From assembly GCA_018714245.1 (NCBI GenBank), contig DVNQ01000043.1:1-64000 (forward strand): a DNA stretch of 64,000 nucleotides, written 5' to 3'. The DNA is from Candidatus Avilachnospira avicola (GTDB lineage: Bacteria; Bacillota; Clostridia; Lachnospirales; Lachnospiraceae). The position numbers were made by a program, and so were the translations under genes. This document shows positions 20,141 through 46,454 of the stretch, one piece after another. Position 1 is the stretch's first letter; every line of letters begins with the position of its first letter. The notes beneath the pieces are model-generated. The model was not told where the DNA came from, did not search any database, and saw nothing but the letters and a program-made list of their open reading frames with translations.

Positions 20141-20173
20141 AAAGCTTCTCCTTCAAATCCGGAAAATATCCTG

Positions 20174-22683
<2,510 letters not shown>

Positions 22684-26716: not shown

Positions 26717-26748
26717 TAAAAAACGGAGCGGACCAGAAGTCCGCCCCT
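26717..26748 (-). terminator. Rho-independent terminator of the nucleoside hydrolase/SIS operon
   Basis: Minus strand GGGGCGGACTTCTGGTCCGCTCCGTTTTTT. Confidence 0.8.
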
Positions 26749-26802: not shown

Positions 26803-27531
26803 CTATCCTCTCACGATACGGCAGTTTACCTCTTCGGGTTTTTCTCTGCGATCCATTACCAGAGCTCCTGTTCCTATGTTTCCAAGCTGAATAAGACAGT
26901 GCTCATTTCTTATATCCATAAAGCTTTCTTCACCCGCAGCATATCTTACGGCAGCCTTCAAAGTCTTCTGTTCATCATCGTCAGCCGGAGTCACAAGCAG
27001 CGTATCCACTCCGCTGTCAAGAATGATCTGCATGGCCTCAGGATCCCTGCGGATGTTGTCATATACATGTATGCCCCTGTCCACGGTCATATCCCTTCCG
27101 CAAAGAAGTATCACCTTTTCAATCTTTTTTGAAAGCCCGGGCCTTATCCTCAGGGTATGGGCCAGGTCCGTAAGAGGGCCGGTACTTAGAAGTATCACCC
27201 TCTCCTCCGAAGCCTTGAGAAGCTCCAGAAGCATAAGGGCTGCAGGCTTTTCCCTGTCATCATCACAGGCCTTTCCGGAGCATTCAGTTTTTTCTTTTTT
27301 CAGAAGGTATCTGCTCATGGAGTTTTTAGCTCCGGCACATACGGGTACGGGTATGTCCAGGCCTTCTGCCTTCACGGCAGCCAAAGCCTCTTTGACCGCA
27401 GCCTTCTGATCCTCGCAACTCCAGGATACGCATACGGCCTTTAGGGAGAAATCTCCGGCAAGAAGCCCATGAAGTACCTCCTCTGCAGTTCCTCCGAAGG
27501 CCCCAAGATTCAGTATGACATTTTTAGACAT
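26803..27531 (-). CDS. Degenerate nucleoside hydrolase-like protein
   Basis: Retains STGPLTDLA and RRDPEAMQIILDSG, but N-terminal DxDxxxDD replaced by NLGAFGGTAEE; internal start at 27531. Confidence 0.7.
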   Translation of the reverse strand: MSKNVILNLGAFGGTAEEVLHGLLAGDFSLKAVCVSWSCEDQKAAVKEALAAVKAEGLDIPVPVCAGAKNSMSRYLLKKEKTECSGKACDDDREKPAALMLLELLKASEERVILLSTGPLTDLAHTLRIRPGLSKKIEKVILLCGRDMTVDRGIHVYDNIRRDPEAMQIILDSGVDTLLVTPADDDEQKTLKAAVRYAAGEESFMDIRNEHCLIQLGNIGTGALVMDRREKPEEVNCRIVRG

Positions 27532-27532
27532 A

Positions 27533-28498
27533 TCACTTTCCCTCCTTGAGATATCTGCAGAGCATGTCCATGAACATTTTCTTATCTGCTTTTTTTGCAA
27601 ATGAGGCATTGATATCTGCAGGATCCGCAGCATGGTCAACTATGGTCTCTCCTTCGTTGTATCCATCCAGCCCTATCTCCACATGGGCCTCCTCCACATC
27701 CGTAAGTATGCTTCTGTCTATTACCGCACAGACTGCCAGAGCATCATGTATGGCCGTTGATATCTTCCCGGGGCCTATGGCGGCATGCTCATACTCTATC
27801 CTCTGTTCCGTCATGGTTGCAGCAAAATCTCCGGCAAAGCTTCCAAGACTTCTTAAGGTTTTGCAGTCCTCAAGGTCCAGTGCCACGGAATGGGTGGCAT
27901 CAAGAGGAATAAAGGTAACTTTTGCGCCGCAGTCCAGCACCTTCTGAGCCGCCTCCGGATCATGCCAGATATTTGCCTCAGCGCAGGGCGTAACATTTGC
28001 TATATCCTCTCCTCCTCCCATAAGGACTATCTCTTCAATATTTTCCGCTATATCAGGAGCAATTGAAAGAGCCTCTCCAAGATTAGTCAGAGGGCCTACG
28101 GGTATCAGCGTCAGCTTTTCATCGGTATTTCTCAGCTTGTTTACATAGAAGCTGACCGCATCCATGTCCTCTTCCTTCCAGTCCGTCGGTTCCAGTCCTT
28201 CAAGATGGTCGTAGTGTATCTTAAGCTCCTTGCCATCTTTAAATACAGGCTTGTAATCGTTGGATGCACATCTGGGAGCCAGATATTTCACCATGGCGGT
28301 ACCGCAGCCCTTATATACGGGTACAGGCTTCCCGAGTCTGTCAAGCAGCCTCAGGGTGTTGTCAGTGGTCAGATCCACATTCATGTTGCCCCATACGGTA
28401 CAGATCCCCACTACTTCCAGATCCGGACACAGAAGGGCCGTCATGATCGCCACGGCATCATCTGAACCGGTATCCACGTCCAATATAACTTTTCTCAT
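27533..28498 (-). CDS. Inosine/uridine-preferring nucleoside hydrolase family protein
   Basis: VILDVDTGSDDAVAIMTAL, PVGPLTNLGEAL, HDPEAAQKVLDCGA, AIHDALAVC. Confidence 0.93.
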   Translation of the reverse strand: MRKVILDVDTGSDDAVAIMTALLCPDLEVVGICTVWGNMNVDLTTDNTLRLLDRLGKPVPVYKGCGTAMVKYLAPRCASNDYKPVFKDGKELKIHYDHLEGLEPTDWKEEDMDAVSFYVNKLRNTDEKLTLIPVGPLTNLGEALSIAPDIAENIEEIVLMGGGEDIANVTPCAEANIWHDPEAAQKVLDCGAKVTFIPLDATHSVALDLEDCKTLRSLGSFAGDFAATMTEQRIEYEHAAIGPGKISTAIHDALAVCAVIDRSILTDVEEAHVEIGLDGYNEGETIVDHAADPADINASFAKKADKKMFMDMLCRYLKEGK

Positions 28499-28536
28499 AT
28501 GTTTGTAACCCCTTAATCCTTAACTTTTAAAATTAA

Positions 28537-28566
28537 AGGCCTGCACGTATTACGCTGTGCAGGCCT
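28537..28566 (-). terminator. Intercistronic hairpin
   Basis: Arms AGGCCTGCAC/GTGCAGGCCT, weak T-rich tail on minus strand. Confidence 0.5.
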
Positions 28567-28594
28567 CGAATCCGTGACTTAAACCTTAAGTTTA

Positions 28595-29005
28595 TCAGTC
28601 AGAGATCACCTTTACGAAAAACTGTCTGTCTCTGGGGCCGTCAAATTCAGCAAACAGAATGCCCTGTGAAGATCCGAGCAGAGCCTTTCCTCCGGTAACG
28701 ATAAGAGGAATAGTTGTTCCGCAGACTGCGGACTTTATATGTCCCGCAGCATCCGTAGGGGTGTCGAACTGATGTCTGTAGTCATAACGGGTAGGGATCA
28801 GCTTGTCTATCTCCTCCATGAAGTCCACATGACCGCGCTTGTCCCAGAAAGACGTAACTATGAGGCTGGCAGTAGTGTGGTTGCACTGGATGATGCAGAA
28901 GCCTTCCTTGATGCCGCTCTTTGCCACTGCCTCCTGGACCTTGTCAGTTACATCATGCATACCCTCAAACTCTGTCCTGAGGGATATCTTTTCCATATAG
29001 CTCAT
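28595..29005 (-). CDS. YjbQ/UPF0047 family protein (canonical-looking copy)
   Basis: CNHTTASLIV, DAAGHIKSAVCGTTIPLIV, LGSSQGILFAEFDGPRDRQFFVKV. Confidence 0.85.
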   Translation of the reverse strand: MSYMEKISLRTEFEGMHDVTDKVQEAVAKSGIKEGFCIIQCNHTTASLIVTSFWDKRGHVDFMEEIDKLIPTRYDYRHQFDTPTDAAGHIKSAVCGTTIPLIVTGGKALLGSSQGILFAEFDGPRDRQFFVKVISD

Positions 29006-29018
29006 TATAAAAGCCTCC

Positions 29019-30209
29019 TTAACGAATGATCTCGATCTGACTCTTCCTGAACCTTACGCAATCCGCATCCTTCTGATGTATCTCGCTGTCAGCTCTGAAA
29101 GGCTTTGTTCCCCTCATCTCAGCTATAAGTGCAGCCACAAGATCCATGGGGATGTGCTGCATGAATACATGCATCCAGGGTGATCTTGCCTCAGGTGTCC
29201 TGAATACTACTGCATTCTCAGGGAACAGTGAAGCATCTCCGTTAGTGATTACGGCAACATGGCTCCTGAGCCTGCACATTACTCTTATGGTCTCCAGCTC
29301 ACGCCCAAAGGAAGGAGAATCAGTATTTGCTATGATGAATGTTCCTACCTTGTCCACGTTCTCGATGAAGTAATTGATATGGCACCAGCCCTCAGAGTCA
29401 TCGTTGGTGGTAAGTCCGCCGAAGGCCTCTACCATCTTGGCAGATCCGAAGAAGGCAGTCGCATAGTCAGCTCCGTCTCCAACGAAGTCCATAACCTCAA
29501 CTCCGTCCTTCTCCCACTTCTCTGCAAGCTCAAGAGCCTGCTCGGAAAGTCTGCTCATAACACTTCCGCTGTAGGAGTTTGCATATGCCAGAAGTCCGTT
29601 CCTGCAGGCCTCTGCCTGGGACATGGTGATCTGTCCCTTTGCCCTGCTCATGTAAAATCCGAACATCATGAGCGAGAACATGGAAGTGTAATAGCTGGTA
29701 ACATTGGGTGCCGAGCCATAGGAAGGCAGATACATGGGTATAATATAAGAGGAATTCTCTGCCAGCTCGCTGTTGGGGTTGGTGGTAAATGCCACGCTGG
29801 TACCGCCTATTTCCTTCATCCTCCTGGCAGCCTCAGTAGGCCTTCTGGGTGATCCGGATATGGACACCGAGCAGAGCAGGTTCTTGGTAAGCGTAGTAGG
29901 CTCCCATCCCTTATAAGTATTGTAGTATCTGGAAAATTCTATGTTCCTGAGAGCGTCAGTGGGGGTTCCGGGTACCATACCGGTCTTTGTGGAAGTATCG
30001 GCATTTTCGAAAACAGGCTTTGCTGCTATGGAAGCACAGTAGCTGTCCCCACATCCGGTAAGCATTACACGGGAAGTGTTTCTAACCACATCCTCAGGAA
30101 CGCAATTGCTGAACAGCTCAAAGGGCTCATTTGCAGCTATTGCATTTATATCCTTTACAGAATTTCTGATCTGATCCAGCATAACGCTGTTGTAATCCTT
30201 ATGAGTCAT
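29019..30209 (-). CDS. SIS-domain sugar isomerase/deglycase-like protein
   Basis: VMLTGCGDSYCASIAAKPVFE, CSVSISGSPRRPTEAARRM, DDSEGWCHINYF. Confidence 0.85.
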   Translation of the reverse strand: MTHKDYNSVMLDQIRNSVKDINAIAANEPFELFSNCVPEDVVRNTSRVMLTGCGDSYCASIAAKPVFENADTSTKTGMVPGTPTDALRNIEFSRYYNTYKGWEPTTLTKNLLCSVSISGSPRRPTEAARRMKEIGGTSVAFTTNPNSELAENSSYIIPMYLPSYGSAPNVTSYYTSMFSLMMFGFYMSRAKGQITMSQAEACRNGLLAYANSYSGSVMSRLSEQALELAEKWEKDGVEVMDFVGDGADYATAFFGSAKMVEAFGGLTTNDDSEGWCHINYFIENVDKVGTFIIANTDSPSFGRELETIRVMCRLRSHVAVITNGDASLFPENAVVFRTPEARSPWMHVFMQHIPMDLVAALIAEMRGTKPFRADSEIHQKDADCVRFRKSQIEIIR

Positions 30210-30225
30210 CGCTGCTTTCTCCTCC

Positions 30226-30639
30226 TTATTCTCCCATGATCAGAACATCGATCTTTCTGTTCTGCGGGCCGTCATAATCAAGCATGAATACACCCATGCC
30301 TTCCATGTCCAAAAGAGCTCCGTCCTTTAGTGCCAGTGTCAGGCTCTGTCCGAATATGGCAGCCTTGATATGTCCTGCAGCATCCTCAGGGGATTCCTCA
30401 TTTTTAAAATTGATCCTTGCGGGTACGATCTTTCTGATCTCGCTGATCACGTCGCATAAAACCGTATCCTTTACGGCAGTCCTTACGATTCCGACTGTAG
30501 GGTCGCAGCTCTGGATCACTGCTATGCCATTCTTTATACCGCTTTTTTCGATGTCCTTTGCGATGAGATCATTGAGGATCTCTGCGCCGTCTCTCTTTGA
30601 GCCAATTACATGAGAATCTGTATATACCATATCATTCAC
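30226..30639 (-). CDS. Divergent YjbQ/UPF0047-like protein
   Basis: ESPEDAAGHIKAAIFGQSLTLALKDGALLDMEGMGVFMLDYDGPQNRKIDVLI; HTTA motif replaced by CDPTVG. Confidence 0.75.
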   Translation of the reverse strand: MNDMVYTDSHVIGSKRDGAEILNDLIAKDIEKSGIKNGIAVIQSCDPTVGIVRTAVKDTVLCDVISEIRKIVPARINFKNEESPEDAAGHIKAAIFGQSLTLALKDGALLDMEGMGVFMLDYDGPQNRKIDVLIMGE

Positions 30640-30640
30640 C

Positions 30641-31789
30641 TCACACGATCTCTATCCTGGTGCCTTCCTTGAGCCTCTGATTGAGCTCGGGAACGTCAAA
30701 CCTGGGATCTCCTTCTCTGAATGCCTTGCCGTCCTTCATAGCTGCAATATATCCTGCAACCATATCAAAAGGAATGTGCTGAAGCAGTGGATTCAGCCAG
30801 AAATATCTGGGAGAAACAGTAGTTACCACATCCATGCCCTCAGGGAACTCCGAAGCATCCGCATCGCTCACTATCATGCAGGGGCTTCCAAGAGACTTTA
30901 TGGCATTGATGGTCTCCTTTACCCTTCCAAAGGAAGGCGTGGTCTTGTTGGTGGTTACGACTCTGCCGATGGTCTCAGGATTCATGAGGAAATAGTTGAT
31001 ATGGCACCAGTCCTCGGAATCATCATAGGTGGTATATCCGCCCCAGGTCTCAATAACCTTCGCGGATCCGAAATATGCAGTAGCATATTCTGCATAATCA
31101 CCGATGAAGTCCATACATCTGAGATCCTTCCATCTCTGGGCTATGTCAAAGCACTGATCCTCCATGGCCGGGAGGCTCTTATTGAATTCATGGGACCAGT
31201 CCGTGATTGCCGCCTTCATATCCTTGTACTCTTCAGCGGATATGGTAGTCTTTGCCCTTCCGATCCTGAGTGCAAGAAGCATCAAGGAAAGCATGGAAGC
31301 TATGTAGGTGGTACCTCCGGGGAAGTACTCTCCGCCCTCAGGAAGTCCGACATTTATCATATGCCTGCAGGCCTTTGCAAGCCTGGACTGGGGATTTGCG
31401 GTTATGGCAAGGGTATTTGCGCCATACTTTGCAGCACGCTGAGCACACTCCACTGCCCTTGTTGCCTCTCCGGAATATGAGATTGCAATAACGAGAGGGG
31501 TGTTGGGGCTGTATCCAAGGTTCTTTGAGTTGAGATGTCTCGAGAAATCCACTGCACGCATAACATTGGTCTCCACCTTTGTAAGCGCCTCAAATGCAGG
31601 CTTTGCTGCTACGCCTGCAAGCCAGCTGTCTCCGCATCCGGTGATGAAGATCTTCTGAGCGTCAAAGATCTCCTTTGCCGGAAGAACCGTATCAAGCTGG
31701 GCCTCCACCTTGGCCTTTACGATCCCGATCATCTCATCAGCTACTCTTGCCTGTCTGATCAATGATGTTTCAAAATCATTCTTATTCAC
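30641..31789 (-). CDS. SIS-domain sugar isomerase/deglycase-like protein
   Basis: IFITGCGDSWLAGVAAKPAFEAL, IAISYSGEATRAVECAQRA, DDSEDWCHINYF. Confidence 0.87.
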   Translation of the reverse strand: MNKNDFETSLIRQARVADEMIGIVKAKVEAQLDTVLPAKEIFDAQKIFITGCGDSWLAGVAAKPAFEALTKVETNVMRAVDFSRHLNSKNLGYSPNTPLVIAISYSGEATRAVECAQRAAKYGANTLAITANPQSRLAKACRHMINVGLPEGGEYFPGGTTYIASMLSLMLLALRIGRAKTTISAEEYKDMKAAITDWSHEFNKSLPAMEDQCFDIAQRWKDLRCMDFIGDYAEYATAYFGSAKVIETWGGYTTYDDSEDWCHINYFLMNPETIGRVVTTNKTTPSFGRVKETINAIKSLGSPCMIVSDADASEFPEGMDVVTTVSPRYFWLNPLLQHIPFDMVAGYIAAMKDGKAFREGDPRFDVPELNQRLKEGTRIEIV

Positions 31790-31802
31790 AAGAATTCCTC
31801 CT

Positions 31803-32756
31803 TTATCCTTGAGTCATCTTTTTATATATGGTCTGCGCCAATTCAAGTGTTTCCTTCTGAGTCTTTTCAGACATATCCGGATAAGGGCCATACTGTCTTA
31901 CATTATAGGATGCTATCACATTTCCGATTATGCAGCACATAAGGGGATCATAGCCCTCGCAGTATGCCCACATAGTAGCCGCCGTGGAGCTGTTTCCGCA
32001 GCCTGTGGGATCTATCTCCTGCTCTCTGGGCACTGAGCTGATCATGGGAACGAAATATTCCTTGCCCTCATCGATCATGCATGCTCCGGCACTTCCGACC
32101 CTGAAATATACGGGACGGTCAAGCTGCTTCAGCATCTTTACGGAGTCCTCCACATTGTCTGTTCCGAAGATACGATAGCTCTCAGGCTTGTTGCAGGAAA
32201 AGATGTCCACTATCTTCAGTCTCTCCTTGACCTCATCCATTCCTCCATGTCTGAAGGATTCTCCAAGGCTGTCCACCTGTGACTCCGGGATTTCCCACAT
32301 GAGCTTGAAATCATATTTTTTCTTGTATTCAAGCATTCCTTTTTCAAACTCTTCATCTATGCCTGAGCTTCTGGATATGCCCTTTACCTCAGATATGAAG
32401 GGCTCATAATCCTTTGCACTCATGATCATCTCGGGAATGTTATAGAACTCATATTCATCACCGTAAATTGAATACTCAATATATTTTCCCTCAGGATCAT
32501 ATACGAGTTCATTGTAGATGGTTTTGTCCGAGCGTACATAGAGGCCGTCTCTGGTACAGTTATTCCTGTTGAACCACTCTCCGTAATACTTTTCAAAGTC
32601 CTCTCCGACTCCGCTCAGAAGCATGGAGTCCGGAGTGCATTGTCTGAGTGCTGCAAAGGCATACATCCCCGAGCCGCCCATGATGTCCTCTATCACTCTT
32701 CCATCTGTAAATATCAGTCGGTTGGTGATGACAGAGCCGTCAGCTATATACTTCAT
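31803..32756 (-). CDS. PfkB-fold carbohydrate kinase-like protein, catalytic Asp position changed
   Basis: MGGSGMYAFAALRQC, GVGEDF, and DPTGCGNSSTAA in place of DTxGAGD. Confidence 0.75.
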   Translation of the reverse strand: MKYIADGSVITNRLIFTDGRVIEDIMGGSGMYAFAALRQCTPDSMLLSGVGEDFEKYYGEWFNRNNCTRDGLYVRSDKTIYNELVYDPEGKYIEYSIYGDEYEFYNIPEMIMSAKDYEPFISEVKGISRSSGIDEEFEKGMLEYKKKYDFKLMWEIPESQVDSLGESFRHGGMDEVKERLKIVDIFSCNKPESYRIFGTDNVEDSVKMLKQLDRPVYFRVGSAGACMIDEGKEYFVPMISSVPREQEIDPTGCGNSSTAATMWAYCEGYDPLMCCIIGNVIASYNVRQYGPYPDMSEKTQKETLELAQTIYKKMTQG

Positions 32757-32772
32757 AAGCCTTCTCTCCTGT

Positions 32773-32803
32773 AAAAATGGGGGCCGGAAATCCGACCCCC
32801 ATC
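32773..32803 (-). terminator. Rho-independent terminator downstream of the ABC importer operon
   Basis: Minus strand TGGGGGTCGGATTTCCGGCCCCCATTTTTA. Confidence 0.8.
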
Positions 32804-32890
32804 ATTTGATTTGTAAAAGCTTCCTTGATCTATCGGGATAAGATTGCTCTTTTACCTTATATTCTTTTGTCAAGGGATCAAAACCCGGGC

Positions 32891-33811
32891 TTATTTAGCC
32901 TTTACCTTCTTCTTTCTGGTTCCGCTCATTCCGGCGAAGCACAGACCGATGATGGTGATGATATAAGGTATCATGGAAGCGAACTGGTAAGGAAGCCTGA
33001 AGCCCTGAGCTATGTTTGCAAGGGCGTCAGCGGCTCCGAATACCAGGGCAAACAGGGCGGCTCCGATGGGATGGCCCGATGCCAGGTTGCAGGCAGCTAT
33101 ACCTATGAATCCACGTCCGGAAACCATGTCCTTTGTGAAGTAAGGTATGTATGCCATTGACATGAAAATGCCTCCGAAGGAAGCAAGCAGTCCGGATATC
33201 AGAAGGGCGATGAACTTTGTCCTGTTGACATTGATACCTACGGATACTGCAGCTGAAGGATCCTCACCAACGGATCTGATCCTCAGTCCAAGAGGTGTCT
33301 TGAATATGAATATGAACACCAGTATCGTGCATATGATGGCTACATATGTCAGTACGTTCTGATCTCCTATGAGTGCTCCGATAACGGGTACATTCTCAAG
33401 GAACTCAAGATGAATGTTGGGGAATGCATAGCTCGTAACCGAGGTGGTATCGGACTTACGTCCAAGAAGCATATACATAAGGTATATGGTACCACAGCTT
33501 CCCAACGTATTAAGCGCCAGACCTATAAGCATTGCATCCGTATCCAGATAAAGCACGAAATATGCAAATATCAGTGCTATGATCATTCCGGCTATGATGC
33601 CTACCAGTGCTCCTAAAAGTACTGATCCGGTAAAAGCACTGCCGAGGGCTCCGCCAAGTGCAGCAAAGAGCATCATTCCTTCATAGGCGATACAAAGGAT
33701 ATCTGCCTTACGGCCTAAGCATGCCGCCATGGCTACAAACACCAGAGGAGTAGCCATGCGGACGGCTGAGCTTAAAAAGTTCGCGGATAAAATCGCATCA
33801 ATTATACTCAT
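32891..33811 (-). CDS. Nucleoside-type ABC transporter permease (BMP-associated)
   Basis: Polytopic; MATPLVFVAMAACLGRKADILCIAYEGMM, FLISGLLASFGGIFMSM-like region; adjacent to BMP and ATPase. Confidence 0.9.
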   Translation of the reverse strand: MSIIDAILSANFLSSAVRMATPLVFVAMAACLGRKADILCIAYEGMMLFAALGGALGSAFTGSVLLGALVGIIAGMIIALIFAYFVLYLDTDAMLIGLALNTLGSCGTIYLMYMLLGRKSDTTSVTSYAFPNIHLEFLENVPVIGALIGDQNVLTYVAIICTILVFIFIFKTPLGLRIRSVGEDPSAAVSVGINVNRTKFIALLISGLLASFGGIFMSMAYIPYFTKDMVSGRGFIGIAACNLASGHPIGAALFALVFGAADALANIAQGFRLPYQFASMIPYIITIIGLCFAGMSGTRKKKVKAK

Positions 33812-34920
33812 CCTTCTACCTCCTCATGATTTTCCATGCTCTCCATCTGCTTTCTGGCATTCTTTACTATCGCCTTCTTCTCGAAGCTATAGAGCAGTCC
33901 GCGGGCAGCTATCATAACGATGATTACCTGCTGAGCGATCTCTACGATCTCTACAGGTACTACGGAAGTTATGTTAAGTACATCCGCAGATGTTCTGATA
34001 TATGCCAGGAACGCTGAAGCCGCAAGTGCACCGATGGGGTTGTTTCTTGCAAGGGTCGCAACCATGATTCCATCCCATCCATACTGAGGGGATGCTACCC
34101 AGTTAAGCCTTGCATAGTAGCCGCTGACCTCAGTTGCTCCTCCGACACCTGTCAGAAAGCCTGCAACGATGGAAGAAAGGAGGATGACTTTCGCTACCTT
34201 TATTCCTGAGAAGTGTGCAAACCTTGAGTTGGCGCCGACTGTACGGCACTGGTATCCGAAGGTGGTCTTGAAAAGTATGAACCAGGTAAGTGCAACAGCA
34301 GCCAGGGCAATGAATATACCTACATGGAACTGTCCGCCGCCAAGGCTCACCTTAGCAAGCTTTGCGCTGTCGGCTACAAGATAAGTTGCCTCATATCCTG
34401 CTCCGGGATCACGGAAGGGACCCGTAACAAGATAGTTTGCAAAGAATGTACATACATAGTTCAGCATCAGGGATGATACGACTATGTTTGCATTGAACTT
34501 GACCTGAAGGATGGCAGGGATCAGAAGCACTGCCGCTGCTGAAACCGCACCCGTAAGGGCCATGATCACAAAATGGATAACAGGAGGCATGCCCTGAGCC
34601 GCACCTACTGCTGCAGCCATAACCGCTGCCACATAGAATGCTCCTTCAACCGCCAGGTTCGATACGCCTGACTGGAACAGGAGGCAGATCGCGCAGCTGG
34701 TGAATATTATAGGGCACATCTTGATGATGAATGTGGTGAATCTGCTGAGGCTGGAAACCGGAGCAGTAATGAATGTTATGACATCATTTGCAAGGTTCTC
34801 CGAGCTCAGCGCAATCATTATAAAGCAGAATACGAGTGCCACTGCTACGGAAATAAGGGTCCTTATGACAGAAAACCTTTTCTCTATCTGTTCCGCTGTG
34901 AGATAAGTCTTCTTATTCAT
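33808..34920 (-). CDS. Nucleoside-type ABC transporter permease (BMP-associated)
   Basis: Polytopic; GVSNLAVEGAFYVAAVMAA, GVGGATEVSGYYARLNWVASPQYGWDGIMVATLARNNPIGA. Confidence 0.9.
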   Translation of the reverse strand: MNKKTYLTAEQIEKRFSVIRTLISVAVALVFCFIMIALSSENLANDVITFITAPVSSLSRFTTFIIKMCPIIFTSCAICLLFQSGVSNLAVEGAFYVAAVMAAAVGAAQGMPPVIHFVIMALTGAVSAAAVLLIPAILQVKFNANIVVSSLMLNYVCTFFANYLVTGPFRDPGAGYEATYLVADSAKLAKVSLGGGQFHVGIFIALAAVALTWFILFKTTFGYQCRTVGANSRFAHFSGIKVAKVILLSSIVAGFLTGVGGATEVSGYYARLNWVASPQYGWDGIMVATLARNNPIGALAASAFLAYIRTSADVLNITSVVPVEIVEIAQQVIIVMIAARGLLYSFEKKAIVKNARKQMESMENHEEVEG

Positions 34921-36499: not shown

Positions 36500-36540
36500 A
36501 TACCCCTAACTCCAATACAGAACTGCTACTTGTTATTATG

Positions 36541-36573
36541 GGCGGGACGCCCCATAACGCGGCGTCCCGTCCC
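36541..36573 (-). repeat. Intercistronic inverted repeat between BMP gene and ABC ATPase gene
   Basis: ggcgggacgcc...ggcgtcccgtcc; strong GC hairpin. Confidence 0.6.
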
Positions 36574-36602
36574 TTACCAAATGCTATTTGATATCAATCT
36601 GA

Positions 36603-37802: not shown

Positions 37803-37849
37803 ATTCTTCTCCTTTTTTCTATTTTTTACGCTTGCGCGCAATTTTCATA

Positions 37850-38827
37850 TCAGTCGTAGGAAGCCATGGTCTCTATCAGAAGCTTCCTGAATCCGGGGAA
37901 GTCAAGCCTCATGCCCACATGGGTATTGGGTGCCTGTCCCCTGAACGGGGATCCTACCGGAGGATCATCCCATTTCTTGGGTGAGCCAAGATCAAAGTCC
38001 ACATCCCTCTCATTTGTCTGAAGTGTCCTCAGATCCGTTACGGTCATGCCTCTTGTAAGGCTTCCATTAAGCTCTATGTCCACATGAAGATATGCGGAAT
38101 CTACCAGCGAAGGATCTATGAGCCATGCTACAGCACATGCATCATGAAGATGGGCATCTCCGCCTCCTGCGAAGAAATCCATGAGCTCTGCCCCGAATAC
38201 TCCTGCCCTGTTTCCAAGTCCGCGGAGCTCTTCGATGAGGTCCTTGTTTACCGGACACTGACGGGTCAGGTTTACGCCTACCATATAGATCGGAATGCCG
38301 CTGTGGAATACCTTGTATGCAGCTTCCGGATCAACATATATATTGAACTCTGCCGCCGGCGTCCAGTTTCCGCAGTAAGCTCCGCCGCCCATGATGTAAA
38401 GTGCTTCCGCACGCTCTGCCACCTTGGGCTCCTTGTTTATGGCCGATGCTATGTTTGTAAGCGGTCCGGTCGCTACAAGGGTTACCCCGTCAGTATTCAT
38501 GACGGTATCTACTATGAAATCCACCCCATGCTTTGTTTCGGGCTTGCGTTTGGGCGGATCCAGCTTCGGGCCGTCCATACCGCTCTTTCCGTGAACATTG
38601 TCCGCTATTACAAGCGGCACCGTTGAAGGGCCTGCATGTCCGGGATATACGGGAACATCCGTACGTCCGATCACTTCCAGCACGGAAAGTGCGTTTCTGG
38701 TCACATTTTCAAGGTATCCGTTTCCGCCCACCGTGGTAACTCCCAGAAGATCACAGTGCTTAGCTGCCAGCATGATCGCAAACGCGTCATCATGCCCCGG
38801 ATCGCAGTCAAGAATCACCTTCTTCAA
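37850..38827 (-). CDS. Nucleoside hydrolase family protein
   Basis: VILDCDPGHDDAFAIMLA, ATGPLTNIASAI, PAAEFNIYVDPEAAYKVFHSG, LHDACAVAWLIDP. Confidence 0.95.
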   Translation of the reverse strand: MKKVILDCDPGHDDAFAIMLAAKHCDLLGVTTVGGNGYLENVTRNALSVLEVIGRTDVPVYPGHAGPSTVPLVIADNVHGKSGMDGPKLDPPKRKPETKHGVDFIVDTVMNTDGVTLVATGPLTNIASAINKEPKVAERAEALYIMGGGAYCGNWTPAAEFNIYVDPEAAYKVFHSGIPIYMVGVNLTRQCPVNKDLIEELRGLGNRAGVFGAELMDFFAGGGDAHLHDACAVAWLIDPSLVDSAYLHVDIELNGSLTRGMTVTDLRTLQTNERDVDFDLGSPKKWDDPPVGSPFRGQAPNTHVGMRLDFPGFRKLLIETMASYD

Positions 38828-38856
38828 TTCTATCGCCTCCTCCCTTAATCTTCAGA

Positions 38857-40041
38857 TCAATAATGATCCTTTGCTATGTCGAGGATCTTTAGGATATCCT
38901 CTTTATCAAGAACCTTGAAGGTTCCAATTTTATCCGTTCCGAACTCATGGCTTGCCATCTCTGCTATCTCATCCATCCGATCCACGGGCACTCCGCCCTC
39001 TGCAAAGGATGTGGGAAGCTTGAGCTCCTTGAAGAACTCCGTGGTAAGCCTGATGCCCTCAAGGGCTGCCTTTTCATCATCCGGCTCATTCACATCAAAT
39101 ACGGTTCTTGCAAACCTTGCAAATCTCCACAGATGGTCCTTGTAAACATATTCCATCCATGCAGGAGTGATGATGGTAAGGGTTATGCCATGAGGCGTAT
39201 CAAACAGTGCGCTGAGCTCATTGCCTATGTTGTGACTGGACCAGTCCTGATTCTTTCCTACGCCTATGGTATTGTTCTGAGCCACGGTACCAAGCCACAT
39301 GACCTCTGCCCTGTACCTGTACTCCTTGGGATGCTGCATGACAAGCCTTCCGAAGGTCACTATGGCTTTCATGACTCCCTCTGCCATGTAATCTATGCAG
39401 TTCAGCTCATCATCATCCGTAAAATATCTTTCCATGCTGTGTGAAAGCATGTCCGCTATGCCGCAGGCCGTTATCTTTTCAGGAAGGGTGCAGCCGAGTC
39501 CCGGATTCATGAACGCATATCTGGGCCTCAGACAGTCCGCACTTGTAAGGGCTTTTATATGCTCCTCATCATTGTTTATTACGGCAACGGCTCCTGACTC
39601 GCTTCCCGTGGCGGGAAGGGTAAGTATGACAGAAACGGGCAGGGCCTTTTCAGGCTTCTTGCCTCCCGTAAAGAACTCCCATACATCACAGTCATTTACT
39701 GCTCCGCAGGCCACGGTCTTTGCCGTATCTATGACGCTTCCGCCGCCGAGGGCAATGATCATATCTACATCATTCTTCTTGGCAAGCTCTATGCCCTCAT
39801 AGGCCTTGGTAAGCCTGGGATTCGGAACTATGCCGTCAAGTTCAAATACTTCAATTCCTCTTTCTGTCATGGACTTTTTGACCCTGTCAAGCAGCCCTGT
39901 CTCAAAGAGGAAGCTGTCGGAGCTCCTGCAGAGCAGGACCTTCTTTATACCGTCAGCCTCAAGTCTTTCCCCGACCCTGGTCTCGGCATCGTGTCCGAAT
40001 ACGAAACAGGTCGAAATGCAGATACTAAAATCATTAAGCAT
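38857..40041 (-). CDS. Iron-containing alcohol dehydrogenase (YqhD/BdhA-like)
   Basis: ALGGGSVIDTAKTVACGA, LPATGSESGAVAVI, GIADMLSHSMERYF, PHGITLTIITPAWM. Confidence 0.93.
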   Translation of the reverse strand: MLNDFSICISTCFVFGHDAETRVGERLEADGIKKVLLCRSSDSFLFETGLLDRVKKSMTERGIEVFELDGIVPNPRLTKAYEGIELAKKNDVDMIIALGGGSVIDTAKTVACGAVNDCDVWEFFTGGKKPEKALPVSVILTLPATGSESGAVAVINNDEEHIKALTSADCLRPRYAFMNPGLGCTLPEKITACGIADMLSHSMERYFTDDDELNCIDYMAEGVMKAIVTFGRLVMQHPKEYRYRAEVMWLGTVAQNNTIGVGKNQDWSSHNIGNELSALFDTPHGITLTIITPAWMEYVYKDHLWRFARFARTVFDVNEPDDEKAALEGIRLTTEFFKELKLPTSFAEGGVPVDRMDEIAEMASHEFGTDKIGTFKVLDKEDILKILDIAKDHY

Positions 40042-40703
40042 CAGAATAACCCCCTTCTGAAGCAGTCAAGCAGATCCACGGCAGTATCAAACAGACAATC
40101 CGGATGCTCCCGTTTCACCAGCTCCCTGTCACCGTCTCCATACAGTACTCCTGCAGACAGAAGTCCATTGTCTCTTGCCGCAGTGATATCCGTATAAGAA
40201 TCCCCTATATATATTGCATTGCTAATGTCAAAATACTTCACGAACTCCCGAAGGCGTATGGTCTTGCTTAAGCCATAGCTCTCATCGGTGGTTCCCTGAA
40301 ATCTGTCAAAATAGATATCCCAGCCCTTTTCCTTAAGAAGCCTGCTGAGAGAAATATGTCCCTTGTTTGAAAGCACCCCGCAGGGAATATTTTCTGCTCT
40401 GATAAACTCAAGCAGCTCTTTTATCCCTTCATACATCACGGTATTGTCAAAGCTGTTTACATACCTGTAATGCCGGTTGCAGTTTTCTTCCGCTATCCGG
40501 ATCTGCTCTTCGGATGCCCCGGGATAAAGGGCCTTGATCATCTCACCCACAGTATATGCCAGATTTCGGTCATCTCCGGCATAGTCCTCATCCAGTATAA
40601 GGCCTGCACTTTCAAAGCCGTATCTTACGGACACCCAGACATCCGAAGCCGTATATGCCAGTGTGCCGTCAAAATCAAAAAGTACTGCACTGAATCTGTA
40701 CAT
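40041..40703 (-). CDS. HAD family hydrolase (phosphoglycolate phosphatase-like)
   Basis: VLFDFDGTLAYTASDVW, GVLSNKGH, IYIGDSYTDITAARDNGL. Confidence 0.93.
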   Translation of the reverse strand: MYRFSAVLFDFDGTLAYTASDVWVSVRYGFESAGLILDEDYAGDDRNLAYTVGEMIKALYPGASEEQIRIAEENCNRHYRYVNSFDNTVMYEGIKELLEFIRAENIPCGVLSNKGHISLSRLLKEKGWDIYFDRFQGTTDESYGLSKTIRLREFVKYFDISNAIYIGDSYTDITAARDNGLLSAGVLYGDGDRELVKREHPDCLFDTAVDLLDCFRRGLF

Positions 40704-40715
40704 CTTGCTATTCCG

Positions 40716-41654
40716 TCACTGTTCTACGGGCGTAACGCATTTCTTGCACCAGATGGTCCCTGCAACTACCAGTATGGAACCGATAACCATGAACGGGGTC
40801 ACCTTGACTCCAAGAAACAGGGCACTTATCACCGTCGAAAATACCGGTATGAAGTTTGCAGCAAATACCACCAGCATCTGGTTGCCCTTCTGCATGGAGC
40901 TGTTCCAGAACAGAGTCCCCAGGAAGCTCGAGAATACTACTATGTAGATCACTTCCCCGATCTGCTGCATGTAAAAATGCTGGGGCTCATCTATGAAAAA
41001 CGTAACTGCAAATGCTATCACACCTGTTATGATCATGAAAAGTCCGGCTGCATCATAGTTTTCCTCTCCGACTATCTTGCGGTTCAGGTTGGAGTAAAAT
41101 GCCCAGGAAATACAGGATACTACCGAAAGTGCACTCGCCCAGAAACCTTCTCCGAACATGACCTTCAGGGTATTTATAAGGGAAAAGCTGTCTCCCTCAG
41201 TATTGGCCACAAGGATCCCCAGGGCACTCAGGATGATGCCTGCGGGAAACGCCTTTGATACCTTGTTTTCATCCCTGAACATGATCACGGCTACGATAAG
41301 TGTAAGCAGCGGCCACATGACTCTGATAAGTCCGCTTGTTACCACCTGTTCCCTTGTGACTGCCACGCCAACCGCCAGATTGGTAGAAAGCTTGTAGACC
41401 ACATACAGGATGCCACAGGTCAGCCAGTATCTGAGTGGAGCACGCTTGTAGCTCTCTATGCCCGTCTTTCTGATCTGATATATCGTGGAAATGATTCCTG
41501 CGCCGATGTTGGTAAGTCCTGTGGATGAAAAATTGCCAAATGTCTCAGCAAGCGACCTGCCGAAGGCATTGCTGGCTCCCCATATGAGGACTCCCAGAAA
41601 TCCCAAGAAGGTATATTTGCTTTTTTGTGAGACATTTTTATTTTCCTGTTCCAT
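40716..41654 (-). CDS. EamA/DMT family transporter
   Basis: About ten TM helices; LGFLGVLIWGASNAFGR. Confidence 0.88.
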   Translation of the reverse strand: MEQENKNVSQKSKYTFLGFLGVLIWGASNAFGRSLAETFGNFSSTGLTNIGAGIISTIYQIRKTGIESYKRAPLRYWLTCGILYVVYKLSTNLAVGVAVTREQVVTSGLIRVMWPLLTLIVAVIMFRDENKVSKAFPAGIILSALGILVANTEGDSFSLINTLKVMFGEGFWASALSVVSCISWAFYSNLNRKIVGEENYDAAGLFMIITGVIAFAVTFFIDEPQHFYMQQIGEVIYIVVFSSFLGTLFWNSSMQKGNQMLVVFAANFIPVFSTVISALFLGVKVTPFMVIGSILVVAGTIWCKKCVTPVEQ

Positions 41655-41666
41655 AAGTCCTTACCC

Positions 41667-42653
41667 TTAAAGATCAATTCCCTTTTCTTTGATAAACTCC
41701 TGAAGCTCCTCCTCATTGGGAGTCTGTCTCGCTCCTCCATGGGATATCTTATAACCTGCCACTGCATGGGCCATCATCACTGCTCTGTCCGCATCAAGGC
41801 CCTTCAGCACCCCAGCTATGAATCCTGCGTTGAAGGAATCTCCGGCTCCGGTCGTGTTGACTACCGGTACCCTGAGAGAAGCTCTTTCTATCTCTTTTCC
41901 ATCAGCTATCATGAAGGATCCTTCGCCGCCCATCCTGGCGATTACGGTCCTTCCGGGAGCCGCAAAGCTCCTTACGCTGTCCTTCCAGTCCTCGTGAGGG
42001 CTGAAGCTGTAAAACTCATCCTTGGCCGAACCCAGAAGGTAGGTAACATAAGGTATGGTCTCGAGTATTGAATCCCTTATACCCGGGTCCAGACTTCCCG
42101 GATCCTTGACCCTTGTATTGAGGTCAAATGATGTAGGAACCCCTGCTTCAAAAGCTGTTTTGAATATGAGCGGCAGTTCCCTTCTTACGCTTCCGTCAAA
42201 CATCACCGTCATGCCTGAGGCATGTACCCAGGAAGCCGTCCTTATCAGATCCAGGTCTATCTTGTCAAGGTCATAATTGACATAGGAAACGTCCGTTCTG
42301 GGAAAGGCCCAGAGTCTCCGCTCTCCTGTCTTATCTATGAAAGCAAACACATATACCGTATTGCTCTGATCATCTGTAAGCGTAAGTCTCGTATCTATGC
42401 CAAGATCCGCAAACTCCTGCCTGATGAATCTTCCTCCGAAATCCGCGCCCAGGGTCCCCATGAATGCAGTGGGGATACCGAGCTTTGAAAGGGAAACCGC
42501 AGTGTTTGCACTGGTTCCGCCTCCTCCGGTCTGCGGAATAAGTGACTCATCCCTGGGAGCACCGTCCGAACCGCCGAGTATGGCAGCAAGGGGAACGGTC
42601 ACATCCACACAGGCATCGCCTATGACTATGGCTTTATTAAATCTCTCAGGCAT
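41667..42653 (-). CDS. PfkB family carbohydrate kinase
   Basis: AIVIGDACVDVTVPL, GGGGTSANTAVSLSKLG, NTTGAGDSFNAGFIAG. Confidence 0.92.
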   Translation of the reverse strand: MPERFNKAIVIGDACVDVTVPLAAILGGSDGAPRDESLIPQTGGGGTSANTAVSLSKLGIPTAFMGTLGADFGGRFIRQEFADLGIDTRLTLTDDQSNTVYVFAFIDKTGERRLWAFPRTDVSYVNYDLDKIDLDLIRTASWVHASGMTVMFDGSVRRELPLIFKTAFEAGVPTSFDLNTRVKDPGSLDPGIRDSILETIPYVTYLLGSAKDEFYSFSPHEDWKDSVRSFAAPGRTVIARMGGEGSFMIADGKEIERASLRVPVVNTTGAGDSFNAGFIAGVLKGLDADRAVMMAHAVAGYKISHGGARQTPNEEELQEFIKEKGIDL

Positions 42654-43362
42654 TGCGGGCCGCCTCTATGAATGCTTTTACCTTCTCAGGATCCTTGCCG
42701 TTTCCGATAGAATCGGTCTGTCCCTTGTCAAGGTTTGTCCTGGTGCAGCTGTCCACACCGTAAGGGTGGGTGATATGTATGGCCTCTGCCACATTTGAAG
42801 CATCCAGTCCTCCGGCAATGATACATTTTACCTTGGTGGCCTCTACTATGGCCCTGTCTATATTCCTGTCATGGACAGCGCCCGTAGCTCCTATGCCTAT
42901 GGTACTTGTAGGCTCCTTTGTATCTATAAGGAAGAAGTCGGTAACGGGCTCATATTTCCTTATAAGCTCCTCTATCTCAGGCCACTGCTCCTCATAAGGG
43001 ATGCCCGCATATACGGGAAGGGCCTGCATTATCTTAAGTCCGGGATATGCATCCCTTATCTTCTGTACATTTTCAGGGGAAATGTCCCTTATGTCTCCGG
43101 AAAGATGATAAACATCCGGTGTGAAAAGTGAAAGATCATTGAGAATCTCGTCTATGTCGCATGCTATGGTAAGTCCTACCTTGACCACGCTGTCGGGCAG
43201 CTGGTCAAATATGGCCTTGGCCTGTGCGCAGCTCTTCTGCTCAGGACCGAGGTGCTTTACCTCACCGAATGCTATACCTATGTGATCTGCTCCAAGCTCC
43301 GCACACATAAGGGCATCCTCAAGGTTCTTGATACCGTATATCTGTGTAATAACGTCTGCCAT
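42646..43362 (-). CDS. TrpF-fold (phosphoribosylanthranilate isomerase-like) protein, probably not a true PRAI
   Basis: ITQIYGIKNLEDALMCAELGADHIGIAF, FLIDTKEPTSTIGIGATGAVHDRNIDRAIVEATKVKCIIAGGLDASNVAEAI. Confidence 0.8.
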   Translation of the reverse strand: MADVITQIYGIKNLEDALMCAELGADHIGIAFGEVKHLGPEQKSCAQAKAIFDQLPDSVVKVGLTIACDIDEILNDLSLFTPDVYHLSGDIRDISPENVQKIRDAYPGLKIMQALPVYAGIPYEEQWPEIEELIRKYEPVTDFFLIDTKEPTSTIGIGATGAVHDRNIDRAIVEATKVKCIIAGGLDASNVAEAIHITHPYGVDSCTRTNLDKGQTDSIGNGKDPEKVKAFIEAARNA

Positions 43363-43399
43363 GGCTTCCTTCTCCTTTTCTTTTTTTTGCTTTAAACCC

Positions 43400-43433
43400 G
43401 GTCATACCTCCCCGCGCAGGCGGGGAGGTGACC
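43400..43433 (-). repeat. GC-rich inverted repeat in the leader of the TrpF-like gene
   Basis: ggtcatacctccccgc gcag gcggggaggtgacc; no T-tract on either strand. Confidence 0.6.
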
Positions 43434-43467
43434 ATTAACCCCAATACTTAGCAACGCTAAAGATCTG

Positions 43468-44367
43468 TCATCTTCTTTCCCTGAGGAATTCCTCCACTTC
43501 ATTGAGTGTGGGAACGCTGGGAGCTGCTCCTTCTCTTGAAACGGCTATGGCGCTTGCCGCACTTGCGTATTCAAGAAGCTTTTCGCTGTCCCATCCCTTT
43601 GTAAGGCCTGCTATGAAGTACCCGCAGAACGTATCCCCCGCTGCCGTGGTATCCACTGCCTTGACCCTGAATATCCCGTGTGAAGTCTTTTCCTCACCGT
43701 TTACATAAACCGCTCCGTTCTCTCCGAGGGTAAGCACGAAGGCTGCCTTCGGAAAAGCCTTCCTGAGCGCTTCCATGACTCCGTCCGGATCCGCTGCTGA
43801 AACTCCCGTAAGAGCCTCGCCTTCCACCTCATTCAAAATGAAGCAATCCACCAGATCCAGCCTGCACTTCTTCAGGCCCTCTGAAATCGGGGAAGGATTG
43901 AGCATAACGGTAAGTCCCTTTTCATGTCCCTTTTCTATGGCATAATCCAGATTGGATATCTCGTTCTGAAGAAGAAGCACATCCCCCTTTTCAAAATCTG
44001 CAAGGGCCTTGTCTATGTCTTCTTTCGTAACGTCATCATTGGCTCCGCCGCAGATGATGATGCAGTTCTGTCCGTTCTCCTCCACCTGGATGATGGCGTG
44101 TCCGGTAGGAAATCTGCTGTTCTTAATATGGTCCACATTGACGCCTGCAGCAGTAAGAAGTCCCGTAAGGATGCGTCCGTCATCGCCTATGCTTCCGGCA
44201 TGGTAAACCTCTGCTCCTGCCTTTCCGAGAGCTATGGACTGGTTAAGGCCCTTTCCTCCGCTGGACTCATCATAATCCAGGGCCTTTATGGTCTCCTTTG
44301 CCTGCACAAAATGCTCTACCTTATATACTTTATCTATGTTGAGTGAACCGATATTGAGGACCTTCAT
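43468..44367 (-). CDS. Ribokinase-like PfkB family kinase
   Basis: VLNIGSLNIDKVYKVEHFV, DESSGGKGLNQSIALGKAG, AVDTTAAGDTFCGYFIAGL. Confidence 0.93.
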   Translation of the reverse strand: MKVLNIGSLNIDKVYKVEHFVQAKETIKALDYDESSGGKGLNQSIALGKAGAEVYHAGSIGDDGRILTGLLTAAGVNVDHIKNSRFPTGHAIIQVEENGQNCIIICGGANDDVTKEDIDKALADFEKGDVLLLQNEISNLDYAIEKGHEKGLTVMLNPSPISEGLKKCRLDLVDCFILNEVEGEALTGVSAADPDGVMEALRKAFPKAAFVLTLGENGAVYVNGEEKTSHGIFRVKAVDTTAAGDTFCGYFIAGLTKGWDSEKLLEYASAASAIAVSREGAAPSVPTLNEVEEFLRERR

Positions 44368-44386
44368 CACTGCCTCCTGGGATAAT

Positions 44387-44408
44387 GTTTAGGAAAACTT
44401 TCCGAAAC
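44387..44408. promoter_or_regulatory. Candidate operator palindrome
   Basis: GTTTaGGAAAacTTTCCgAAAC, 9 of 11 half-site positions symmetric, between divergent regulator and ribokinase operon. Confidence 0.55.
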
Positions 44409-44424
44409 TTATTTTGTTATCAGA

Positions 44425-44453
44425 ATGATACAAAATAATTACAATAAAGTCAA
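44425..44453 (-). promoter_or_regulatory. Sigma70-type promoter for the ribokinase-first operon
   Basis: Minus strand TTGACT (44453-44448), 17-nt spacer, TATCAT (44430-44425). Confidence 0.6.
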
Positions 44454-44493
44454 TGTATTTAGGGCAAAATATACATTCAAATACAATTTTCCC

Positions 44494-44523
44494 TTGTAAC
44501 CTTTGCCCAAACACCTATATAAT
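44494..44523 (+). promoter_or_regulatory. Candidate sigma70-type promoter for the LacI-ribokinase fusion gene
   Basis: TTGTAA, 18-nt spacer, TATAAT, 38 bp upstream of the ATG. Confidence 0.5.
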
Positions 44524-44561
44524 AGCTGTACATAATTATTAAAAATGCAAAAGGGCTTCAT

Positions 44562-46454
44562 ATGACTATCAATGAACTGGCAAGAATGGCCGGAGTATCC
44601 ATATCCACGGTATCGAAGGTCATGAACAACAAAGACAGCAGCATAAGCAAGGCCACGAGGGAGCGAATACTTGAGCTGGCAAAGGAATATCACTATTCTC
44701 CGCCCTCCTCTCCCCTTTCCAAAAAGACCAGAACGCTGACCATAGGCGTAGTCTTTCGTTCATCAGGAAGGATCAATCTCACCCTGAACGGTATCCTTGA
44801 CGCTGCTCAGGAAAAGGGATATACCCCTCTGCTCCGCGAAAGCCGGGATGACCTCAGCACCGAGCGCAAAAACCTGCTCGCCCTGCTTTCATACAATGTG
44901 GATGGAATCCTCTGGGAGCCCGTAAGCGAGGACAGTCTGGCCTTCACGGAAGATATAGAAGCAAAGGGCGTTCCCTATATCATCTTCAATCACTCCTCCG
45001 AGGATGCCATGGATATCGATTATCGGTCTCTTGGCTACCTTGCCTGTGAAGAGCTTATCAAAAGAGGCCATCAGCATATAGCCTGTCTCCTTACCGAAGG
45101 GGAGAGATCCGAAGGCTTTGAAGCCGGATACAGGCAGTGCCTTTTTGATAACCGGATGTCTCTTTCAGAAGATCAGATCTTTCCTTCCATAACGGACAAG
45201 CTGCTCTGGGGCATTTCAAGGCACAGGATAAGCGGAGTGGTAAGCTCCCATTTCCGGACTGCCACCAGACTGTATGACGAGATACACGCCCTTTACTATA
45301 CACTGCCCTACGATGTTTCCCTGATATCCCTCAGGGATGCCGGAAAGAGCGGGGCAGGATATCCGCGCATATCCACCATGACCATTCCTCATTATGAATA
45401 CGGGGCCTTTATGTGCGGAAAGCTGATAAATGTTATCGAGGATCCTTCCCAGGATCTTCCCTCCGGGCCCTTCAGGCACGAGATACACCTTGACAGCACT
45501 GATACCATAGGCATTCCCTATGACAGCAGGAAAAAGCACATGGTCGTACTTGGCAGCGTCAACATCGACAACTATCTCAATGTGGAGGCCCTCCCCTACA
45601 GCGGAAAGACGGTAAAGTCCTACATCTCCGCATCCTATGCGGGGGGAAAGGGACTGAATACTGCAGTAGGAGTTTCCATGCTTGGCCACCAGGCAGCGCT
45701 GATTGGAAATGTGGGAAGCGACGCAGGATCCGATCTGATCTTTTCAACTCTTAACAGCTTTCACATAAATCCTTCCACAGTCAGGAGGATTCAGGGAGAG
45801 CAGACCGGACAGGCCCATATTTTCGTGCAGCCTGACGGAGAGTCCATGATCACCATCATGTCAGGCGCCAACAATCAGCTTAACGTCTCCGATATAGAAA
45901 AGGATATCCGTATTTTTGAAAATGCAGCCTGCTGCCTGCTGAGCACGGAGATCCCGCTGGATACCATAGAAAGAGCTGCGGCCATATCCCGTGAAAAGGG
46001 CATAACCACGATCCTTAAGCCTGCAACCTGCGGAGAGCTGCCTTCTTCCATATTAAAAAATGTGGATATCCTTATTCCTAATGAGAGCGAGCTGAATGAG
46101 ATATGTCCATCCGGAAAGGACCTGAAGGAAAAGGCTCAGAGGCTCATGGATCTCGGAGCCGGCTCGGTCATCGTAACCCTCGGTGAAAGGGGTTCCATCC
46201 TTATAAACAGGAACGGAGAAAAGCTCTATCCTGCCCATAAGTTTGATGCAGTGGATTCTTCCGGAGCCTGCGACGCATTCATAAGCGCTCTGGCATCATA
46301 TCTCCTTTACGGATATGACATGGACAGGGCCATACGGATAGCCACCTATGCGGCAGGCCTCAGTGTTACCAGGCAGGGAGTCATCCCCGCCCTCACGGAT
46401 AAGAACAGCCTGGAATCCTATATCCGGCAGAGGGAACCTGAGCTTCTTGACTGA
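44562..46454 (+). CDS. LacI-family regulator fused to a PfkB/ribokinase domain
   Basis: N-terminal HTH TINELARMAGVSISTVSKVMNNKD with LacI sensor region; from about residue 327 HMVVLGSVNIDNYLNVEALPYSGKTV...GGKGLNTAVGVSMLG...VDSSGACDAFISALASYLL. Confidence 0.93.
   Translation: MTINELARMAGVSISTVSKVMNNKDSSISKATRERILELAKEYHYSPPSSPLSKKTRTLTIGVVFRSSGRINLTLNGILDAAQEKGYTPLLRESRDDLSTERKNLLALLSYNVDGILWEPVSEDSLAFTEDIEAKGVPYIIFNHSSEDAMDIDYRSLGYLACEELIKRGHQHIACLLTEGERSEGFEAGYRQCLFDNRMSLSEDQIFPSITDKLLWGISRHRISGVVSSHFRTATRLYDEIHALYYTLPYDVSLISLRDAGKSGAGYPRISTMTIPHYEYGAFMCGKLINVIEDPSQDLPSGPFRHEIHLDSTDTIGIPYDSRKKHMVVLGSVNIDNYLNVEALPYSGKTVKSYISASYAGGKGLNTAVGVSMLGHQAALIGNVGSDAGSDLIFSTLNSFHINPSTVRRIQGEQTGQAHIFVQPDGESMITIMSGANNQLNVSDIEKDIRIFENAACCLLSTEIPLDTIERAAAISREKGITTILKPATCGELPSSILKNVDILIPNESELNEICPSGKDLKEKAQRLMDLGAGSVIVTLGERGSILINRNGEKLYPAHKFDAVDSSGACDAFISALASYLLYGYDMDRAIRIATYAAGLSVTRQGVIPALTDKNSLESYIRQREPELLD

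Follow-up and report, generated by a model that had tools for sequence, protein, structure and literature searches.

What does a bacterium do with an operon that places a BMP-type importer and nucleoside hydrolases beside sugar kinases, a TrpF-like protein and paired SIS and YjbQ proteins? The question is raised by positions 26803-46454 of a 64,000-nucleotide stretch, hereafter the window, of contig DVNQ01000043.1 from the metagenome-assembled genome (MAG) of Candidatus Avilachnospira avicola. An earlier note on this DNA had read the block as a candidate N-riboside or pentose salvage system, and every protein that it named lies where it was placed, on the same strand and above Pfam cut-offs (Table 1). 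Its gene content and operon-like anatomy, the conservation and co-occurrence of its genes, their association with riboside-cleaving genes and the state of their motifs lead us to consider it likely that the locus is one riboside-catabolic system, serving the uptake and breakdown of N-ribosides, and that its substrates are probably nucleosides or nucleoside-like compounds outside ordinary salvage. An N-riboside catabolic system is well supported because gene runs are conserved, the modules co-occur and sub-cassettes lie beside nucleoside- or riboside-cleaving genes.

A GTDB-wide scan with an alignment of the SIS proteins gave 78 loci, whose gene order was read by tblastn. Eight MAGs of Erysipelotrichaceae, most of them with names that indicate the ruminant gut (L046, L048-L051, L053, L054 and L076), carry one run, BMP-ABC-Perm1-Perm2-PfkBc-SIS1-YjbQ2-SIS2-YjbQ1-TrpF-like-PfkBb-NH1, which is cut by contig ends in L046 and L054; the counterpart of nucleoside hydrolase (NH) 1 in these operons is 74-78% identical. 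The window order, TrpF-like-PfkBb-EamA-HAD-FeADH-NH1-BMP-ABC-Perm1-Perm2-PfkBc-SIS1-YjbQ2-SIS2-YjbQ1, recurs across L045 and L143 of one Oscillospiraceae MAG. The core is thus found in two families, Erysipelotrichaceae and Oscillospiraceae, and not in this strain only, which bears out the suggestion of the earlier note that the genes form one system and leads us to reject a chance neighbourhood. Three further genomes (G676, G679 and G680) hold both cassettes without close linkage: in G679, one contig has NH2-NH2'-NH1-HAD-EamA-PfkBb-TrpF-like and a second the SIS/YjbQ/PfkBc cassette, and in G680 the two parts lie ~17 kb apart. Among culturable bacteria, Neobittarella massiliensis carries both the TrpF-like/PfkB and the SIS/YjbQ families. 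Within the cassettes, the TrpF-like gene adjoins a PfkB-type kinase or kinase-fusion match in 28/35 cases, one or two of which (e.g. L154) may match just the LacI part of a fusion, and L038 adds one by Pfam; YjbQ follows SIS in 89 of the 132 assessable cases and is present in 63 of the 78 loci. TrpF-like genes are rare (3/296 in the order and 7/392 in the class, several of the class set being ordinary KIC-type TrpF).

A TrpF-like orthologue (64-82% identity) occurs in 13/14 genomes where SIS1 reaches 50% identity and in 0/14 where it falls short of this (Fisher 7.5e-7), and the first of several points that weigh against a single riboside system concerns this comparison, as the 28 genomes were selected by SIS and are phylogenetically clustered, so that p-values are indicative and overstate independence. 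The others are that all eight compact operons belong to one family, that SIS/YjbQ cassettes occur in genomes with no TrpF-like gene at all, that the TrpF-like genes of G048 and G537 lie with an energy-coupling factor (ECF) transporter and no SIS or YjbQ at the locus, and that the ligand of the BMP protein may be flavin-like, TpN38(b) being a closer solved relative than PnrA. The separate occurrence of both cassettes would be explained if two or three unrelated modules (transport with SIS/YjbQ, TrpF-like/PfkB, and ribose) simply stood side by side, but their compact joint runs in two families, with differing gene order, and their unlinked co-occurrence in three genomes make this quite improbable.

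The substrate class proposed by the earlier note, a riboside or nucleoside-like compound, is supported by the neighbours of these cassettes in other genomes. In Paenibacillus, Bacillus and Lachnospiraceae a single SIS-YjbQ pair and PfkBc lie beside two ADP-ribosylglycohydrolases, in clusters that also hold varied mixes of uridine phosphorylase, a protein of the nucleoside deoxyribosyltransferase (NDT) family, purine nucleoside phosphorylase, a phosphopentomutase-superfamily metalloenzyme and NH. Homologues of NH1 or NH2 are present at TrpF-like/SIS loci, and in G537 and G048 the TrpF-like gene and its ECF transporter are accompanied by an iron-containing alcohol dehydrogenase (Fe-ADH) and a nucleoside hydrolase. 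A transporter-NH fusion is found in G537, and an MFS-NH fusion with an ECF transporter at L039. Genomes with TrpF-like genes have a mean NH density of 9.2 per Mb, against 1.2 in those without, and in an order/class sample that was not selected by SIS, NH genes occur in 4/4 TrpF-like genomes and in 6/20 negatives (Mann-Whitney p = 0.0013). Single genomes carry 35 (G683), 34 (G680) and 21 (G679) NH genes, and the 1.58-Mb MAG of the window carries 9. In the first three (L061, L057 and L055), with genomes of 1.8-2.5 Mb, these genes are often in tandem.

Within the window, 18 collinear minus-strand genes span 26803-44370 with intergenic gaps of -8 to 134 bp. The best minus-strand sigma-70-like site near the operon start (44453-44425) has a -10 element that overlaps a perfect dyad, the single match in the window to a pattern expected by chance 0.01 times per window. 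Because a promoter-like site under a perfect dyad is followed by 18 collinear genes and one terminator, the genes from 44370 to 26803 probably form one operon, with the divergent LacI-ribokinase fusion as its regulator. The fusion keeps the catalytic Asp of the PfkB motif, and a fusion 41% identical to it adjoins the TrpF-like gene at L039. A search at L039 and L143 did not find the dyad that lies upstream of RbsK; in Erysipelotrichaceae, dyad-like sites with 1-2 mismatches lie ~350 bp upstream of BMP, but they are AT-rich and unconvincing. Control by a riboswitch was rejected, the Rfam matches in the window being two tRNAs only. By Pfam matches, the region is flanked by a V-type ATPase operon (15063-22683) and a membrane H+-pyrophosphatase (48030-50210).

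Table 1. Positions and sequence evidence for features of the locus and of a second TrpF-like gene set in the window.
Feature	Position	Strand	Evidence
LacI-ribokinase fusion, presumed regulator	44562-46454	plus	LacI 8e-15, PfkB 2.5e-50
Candidate operator, perfect 9-12-9 dyad TTATTTTGT-N12-ACAAAATAA	44409-44438	none	dyad search
RbsK ribokinase, catalytic Asp present	43468-44370	minus	PfkB 1.3e-49
TrpF-like protein, QIY replacing KIC	42646-43362	minus	PRAI 6.6e-11, 42.7 bits
PfkBb sugar kinase, GAGD intact	41667-42653	minus	PfkB 1.7e-41
EamA exporter (putative)	40716-41654	minus	Pfam; nearest curated model YddG, below cut-off
HAD phosphatase	40041-40703	minus	Pfam
Fe-ADH	38857-40041	minus	Pfam
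NH1, DxDxxxDD intact	37850-38827	minus	PF01156 4.6e-92
BMP-type substrate-binding lipoprotein	36603-~37802	minus	Bmp domain 8.5e-41
ABC ATPase, two domains	34913-36499	minus	domain match
ABC permease 1	33808-34920	minus	domain match
ABC permease 2	32891-33811	minus	domain match
PfkBc, ribokinase fold, GCGN (Asn for catalytic Asp)	31803-32756	minus	domain match and alignment
SIS1, GlmS-isomerase-like, Glu247 and His263 conserved	30641-31789	minus	domain match and alignment
YjbQ2 (UPF0047)	30226-30639	minus	TIGR00149 66.5, just below cut-off 67.75
SIS2, SIS1 paralogue	29019-30209	minus	domain match and tree
YjbQ1 (UPF0047), HTTA and EFDGPR retained, near canonical	28595-29005	minus	TIGR00149 101.4, cut-off 67.75
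NH2, DxDxxxDD intact	27533-28498	minus	IU_nuc_hydro domain
NH3, degenerate NH homologue	26803-27531	minus	PF01156 1.1e-15, partial
Terminator-like site (intrinsic), 10-bp stem and T tail	26725-26747	minus	best minus-strand site, directly after NH3
Second TrpF-like set	6841-10119	minus	missed in the earlier note
Second-set TrpF-like gene	9448-10119	minus	PRAI family
Second-set PfkB genes	8483-9451 and 7527-8486	minus	
Second-set D-lyxose isomerase	6841-7761	minus	

In the scheme that we favour, whose direction of transport, substrate class, enzymatic steps and export are predicted from the genes, the BMP-ABC system would import an N-riboside, NH1 (and NH2) would hydrolyse its N-glycosidic bond, RbsK would yield ribose 5-phosphate and EamA would export the unused aglycone. 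The PfkBb/TrpF-like and PfkBc/SIS1/YjbQ2/SIS2/YjbQ1 cassettes would act on a sugar phosphate or an aminosugar that does not arise by plain hydrolysis, with the SIS pair carrying out an isomerase- or deglycase-like proton transfer through its conserved Glu and His. The narrower proposal, that PfkBc (with its GxGN motif), the SIS pair and the YjbQ pair are one enzyme system of N-riboside breakdown, coupled to a TrpF-fold enzyme with Tyr/His/Asp instead of Cys/Asp, is one that we hold tentatively, as a possibility more than an expectation.

The Bmp domain of the lipoprotein scores 140.3 bits (cut-off 24.1), and its nearest solved structures are TpN38(b) (4iil), the riboflavin-binding RfuA of Treponema, and then other lipoproteins including PnrA-type proteins and TmpC. 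Since TpN38(b) is the nearest solved relative, the ligand could be flavin-like or another vitamin riboside, and the substrate of the whole system a vitamin-like ribityl or ribosyl compound (flavin, lumazine or benzimidazole riboside) and not an RNA nucleoside. ECF transporters take the place of the BMP system at L027 and L039, which would fit such a substrate; for their S component only the CD3073 family was matched, below its cut-off and with no substrate named, and no paper on it was found. Weak matches to a putative B6 transporter point the same way, although they score far under curated cut-offs, and we rejected an assignment as a B6 transporter. Set against these points, NH1 and NH2 are ordinary family members with intact motifs, and genes for phosphorylases and the phosphopentomutase superfamily accompany the other cassettes, so a vitamin-like substrate seems to us unlikely.

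The three nucleoside-hydrolase-family proteins listed in the earlier note are all present, but the third, NH3, is without the DxDxxxDD metal motif and has a shorter start. Its open reading frame begins within NH2 (27639, TTG), and the true start is likely the ATG at 27531, one base past the NH2 stop and behind AGGAGG. The tandem NH partners at L145 both retain DxDxxxDD.

The TrpF-like protein has the fold of phosphoribosylanthranilate (PRA) isomerase, or PRAI, with altered catalytic residues. Its AlphaFold model (predicted local distance difference test score, pLDDT, 86.6) has only PRA isomerases as best PDB matches, and these fill Foldseek ranks 1-9 with template modelling (TM) scores of 0.70-0.76 by query and 0.83-0.88 by target. 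It shares with TrpF the GGL phosphate loop and the equivalent of Asp126, the general-acid Asp. In contrast, the catalytic Cys7 (T. maritima numbering) is Tyr in 15/15 aligned members, and 21 further copies read QIY, QVY or QLY; the Arg36 region is unconserved, the LHG motif conserved in TrpF is changed, and His86 is invariant in the family where TrpF has Gln. The gene is usually beside a PfkB partner and not trp genes. A TrpF of tryptophan biosynthesis with incidental sugar genes would account for the match to the PRAI family, but the protein scores 85 bits on the curated TrpF model (cut-off 216), the catalytic Cys is replaced, and trpB is undetectable in the MAG of the window, which makes tryptophan biosynthesis implausible for both of its PRAI-family genes, the only two and both TrpF-like; we regard this explanation as ruled out for practical purposes. 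The second of these genes belongs to a set that is conserved in part at L028 and L159 (Table 1). TrpF-like/PfkB pairs are multi-copy in G680, G681 and G683, with 6-7 TrpF-like copies each, and adjoin amidohydrolases, NH genes or YhfS-like PLP (pyridoxal phosphate) enzymes.

The partner kinases differ in their motifs. RbsK scores 246 bits on TIGR02152, under the cut-off of 299.65. Members of the PfkBb subfamily always have the TrpF-like gene adjacent wherever the neighbouring sequence was covered. The Asn of GCGN in PfkBc aligns with the Asp in GAGD of the nucleoside kinase MJ0406, and nearly 60 gene copies of its homologues have GCGN, GGGN or GAGN; the motif search pattern missed only L118 and L122, and L118 has GCGN in the alignment. 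The PfkBc model (pLDDT 94.1) has a ribokinase fold with nucleoside kinase and ribokinase as top PDB matches, the best by Foldseek being the nucleoside kinase 3kd6 (TM 0.71-0.75). Five PfkBc-type genes stand in tandem at L096 (13892-18714).

A Glu and a His stand 16 residues apart in SIS1, SIS2 and every full-length homologue examined, with the spacing of the catalytic E488 and H504 of GlmS. SIS1 and SIS2 from the SIS-selected genomes form two parallel clades in the SIS tree. Neither protein matched an FrlB or FraB model at E 0.001, and their NCBIfam matches (GlmS, HxlB and others) lie below cut-off. YjbQ2 no longer has the histidine of HTTA or the glutamate of EFDGPR. Pairs of paralogues in which one member is altered (YjbQ1/2, NH2/3 and PfkBb/c) recur, which suggests hetero-oligomers. 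In a further branch of clusters (L025, L066, L070, L073 and L090-L094), SIS/YjbQ genes are accompanied by genes for a BtpA-family TIM barrel, for MFS proteins and for small membrane proteins. A single cluster there can hold as many as five SIS genes, and BtpA may take the place of the TrpF-like protein.

These motif states bear on the chemistry that the earlier note had proposed, a kinase followed by a TrpF Amadori rearrangement and a SIS deglycase. In such a route an exocyclic-amine N-riboside would be phosphorylated by PfkBb, the TrpF-like protein would form 1-amino-1-deoxyribulose 5-phosphate, SIS1/SIS2 would split it into amine and ribose 5-phosphate, and NH1 would act in parallel. The TrpF fold with its retained general-acid Asp, the GlmS spacing of the SIS pair, the intact kinase motif of PfkBb and the resemblance of EamA to an aromatic exporter all agree with it, as does its chemical coherence for glycosides of exocyclic amines. 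A kinase-deglycase pairing is also known for fructoselysine (PMC4697335). The chain lacks support in the form in which it was stated, as the Cys is Tyr, PfkBc is without the kinase base and no deglycase model was matched; the rearrangement is moreover impossible for ring-nitrogen nucleosides, and Fe-ADH and HAD are left with no role. Since the Cys of TrpF is lost, no deglycase model is matched and the cassettes also occur separately, as with the TrpF-like loci of G048 and G537, we think this order of steps somewhat unlikely.

A role for Fe-ADH and HAD is offered by comparison with the dihydroxyacetone phosphate (DHAP) shunt, which consists of a nucleosidase, a kinase, an isomerase, an aldolase and aldehyde reduction. 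The window locus likewise brings together an N-ribosidase, a sugar kinase and an alcohol dehydrogenase, and TrpF-like, PfkBb, HAD, EamA, Fe-ADH and NH1 also occur together in L143, L027 and L146 (NH1 not seen in the last). NH1 could free a modified pentose (e.g. deoxy- or O-methyl-ribose), which PfkBb would phosphorylate and the TrpF-fold protein isomerise or cleave, before Fe-ADH reduced the aldehyde and HAD removed the phosphate. However, neither an MtnA-type isomerase nor a class II or other aldolase-family gene was found in the window operon, Fe-ADH and HAD are absent from the Erysipelotrichaceae operons, and SIS and YjbQ would go unused, so that we judge such a shunt, too, to be unlikely.

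The favoured N-riboside system resembles nucleoside salvage operons, with which it shares the importer class (BMP/PnrA-type ABC), N-ribosidase, ribokinase and LacI-type control, but it adds TrpF-like/PfkBb, PfkBc and paired SIS and YjbQ, none of which we know from a described nucleoside operon. The frl/fra operons for fructoselysine and fructose-asparagine likewise have an importer, a PfkB-type kinase and a SIS protein with the GlmS-type Glu/His; in the window the SIS proteins are instead paired, ~390 aa long and nearest the isomerase half of GlmS, and the locus further holds nucleoside hydrolases, YjbQ and TrpF-like proteins. The claim of the earlier note that no such pathway is described stands for the open-access papers to which our search was confined, and in them we found nothing relevant on YjbQ with SIS and PfkB or on TrpF with nucleoside hydrolase and BMP. 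The operon appears to be an uncharacterised variant of nucleoside or riboside catabolism with an unexplained core.

If this reading is correct, the YjbQ/UPF0047 family, for which many crystal structures exist but curated models state only a hypothetical function, would gain a substrate class, partner enzymes and its first pathway role. Ribokinase-fold proteins of the GxGN type would, as an entire branch, have a non-kinase or otherwise unusual role, and a family with the TrpF fold would prove to be wrongly named after tryptophan biosynthesis. The carrier genomes hold as many as 35 nucleoside hydrolase genes in ~1.8 Mb, which points to gut and rumen bacteria that would be specialised on ribosides, for example those of dietary or microbial RNA.

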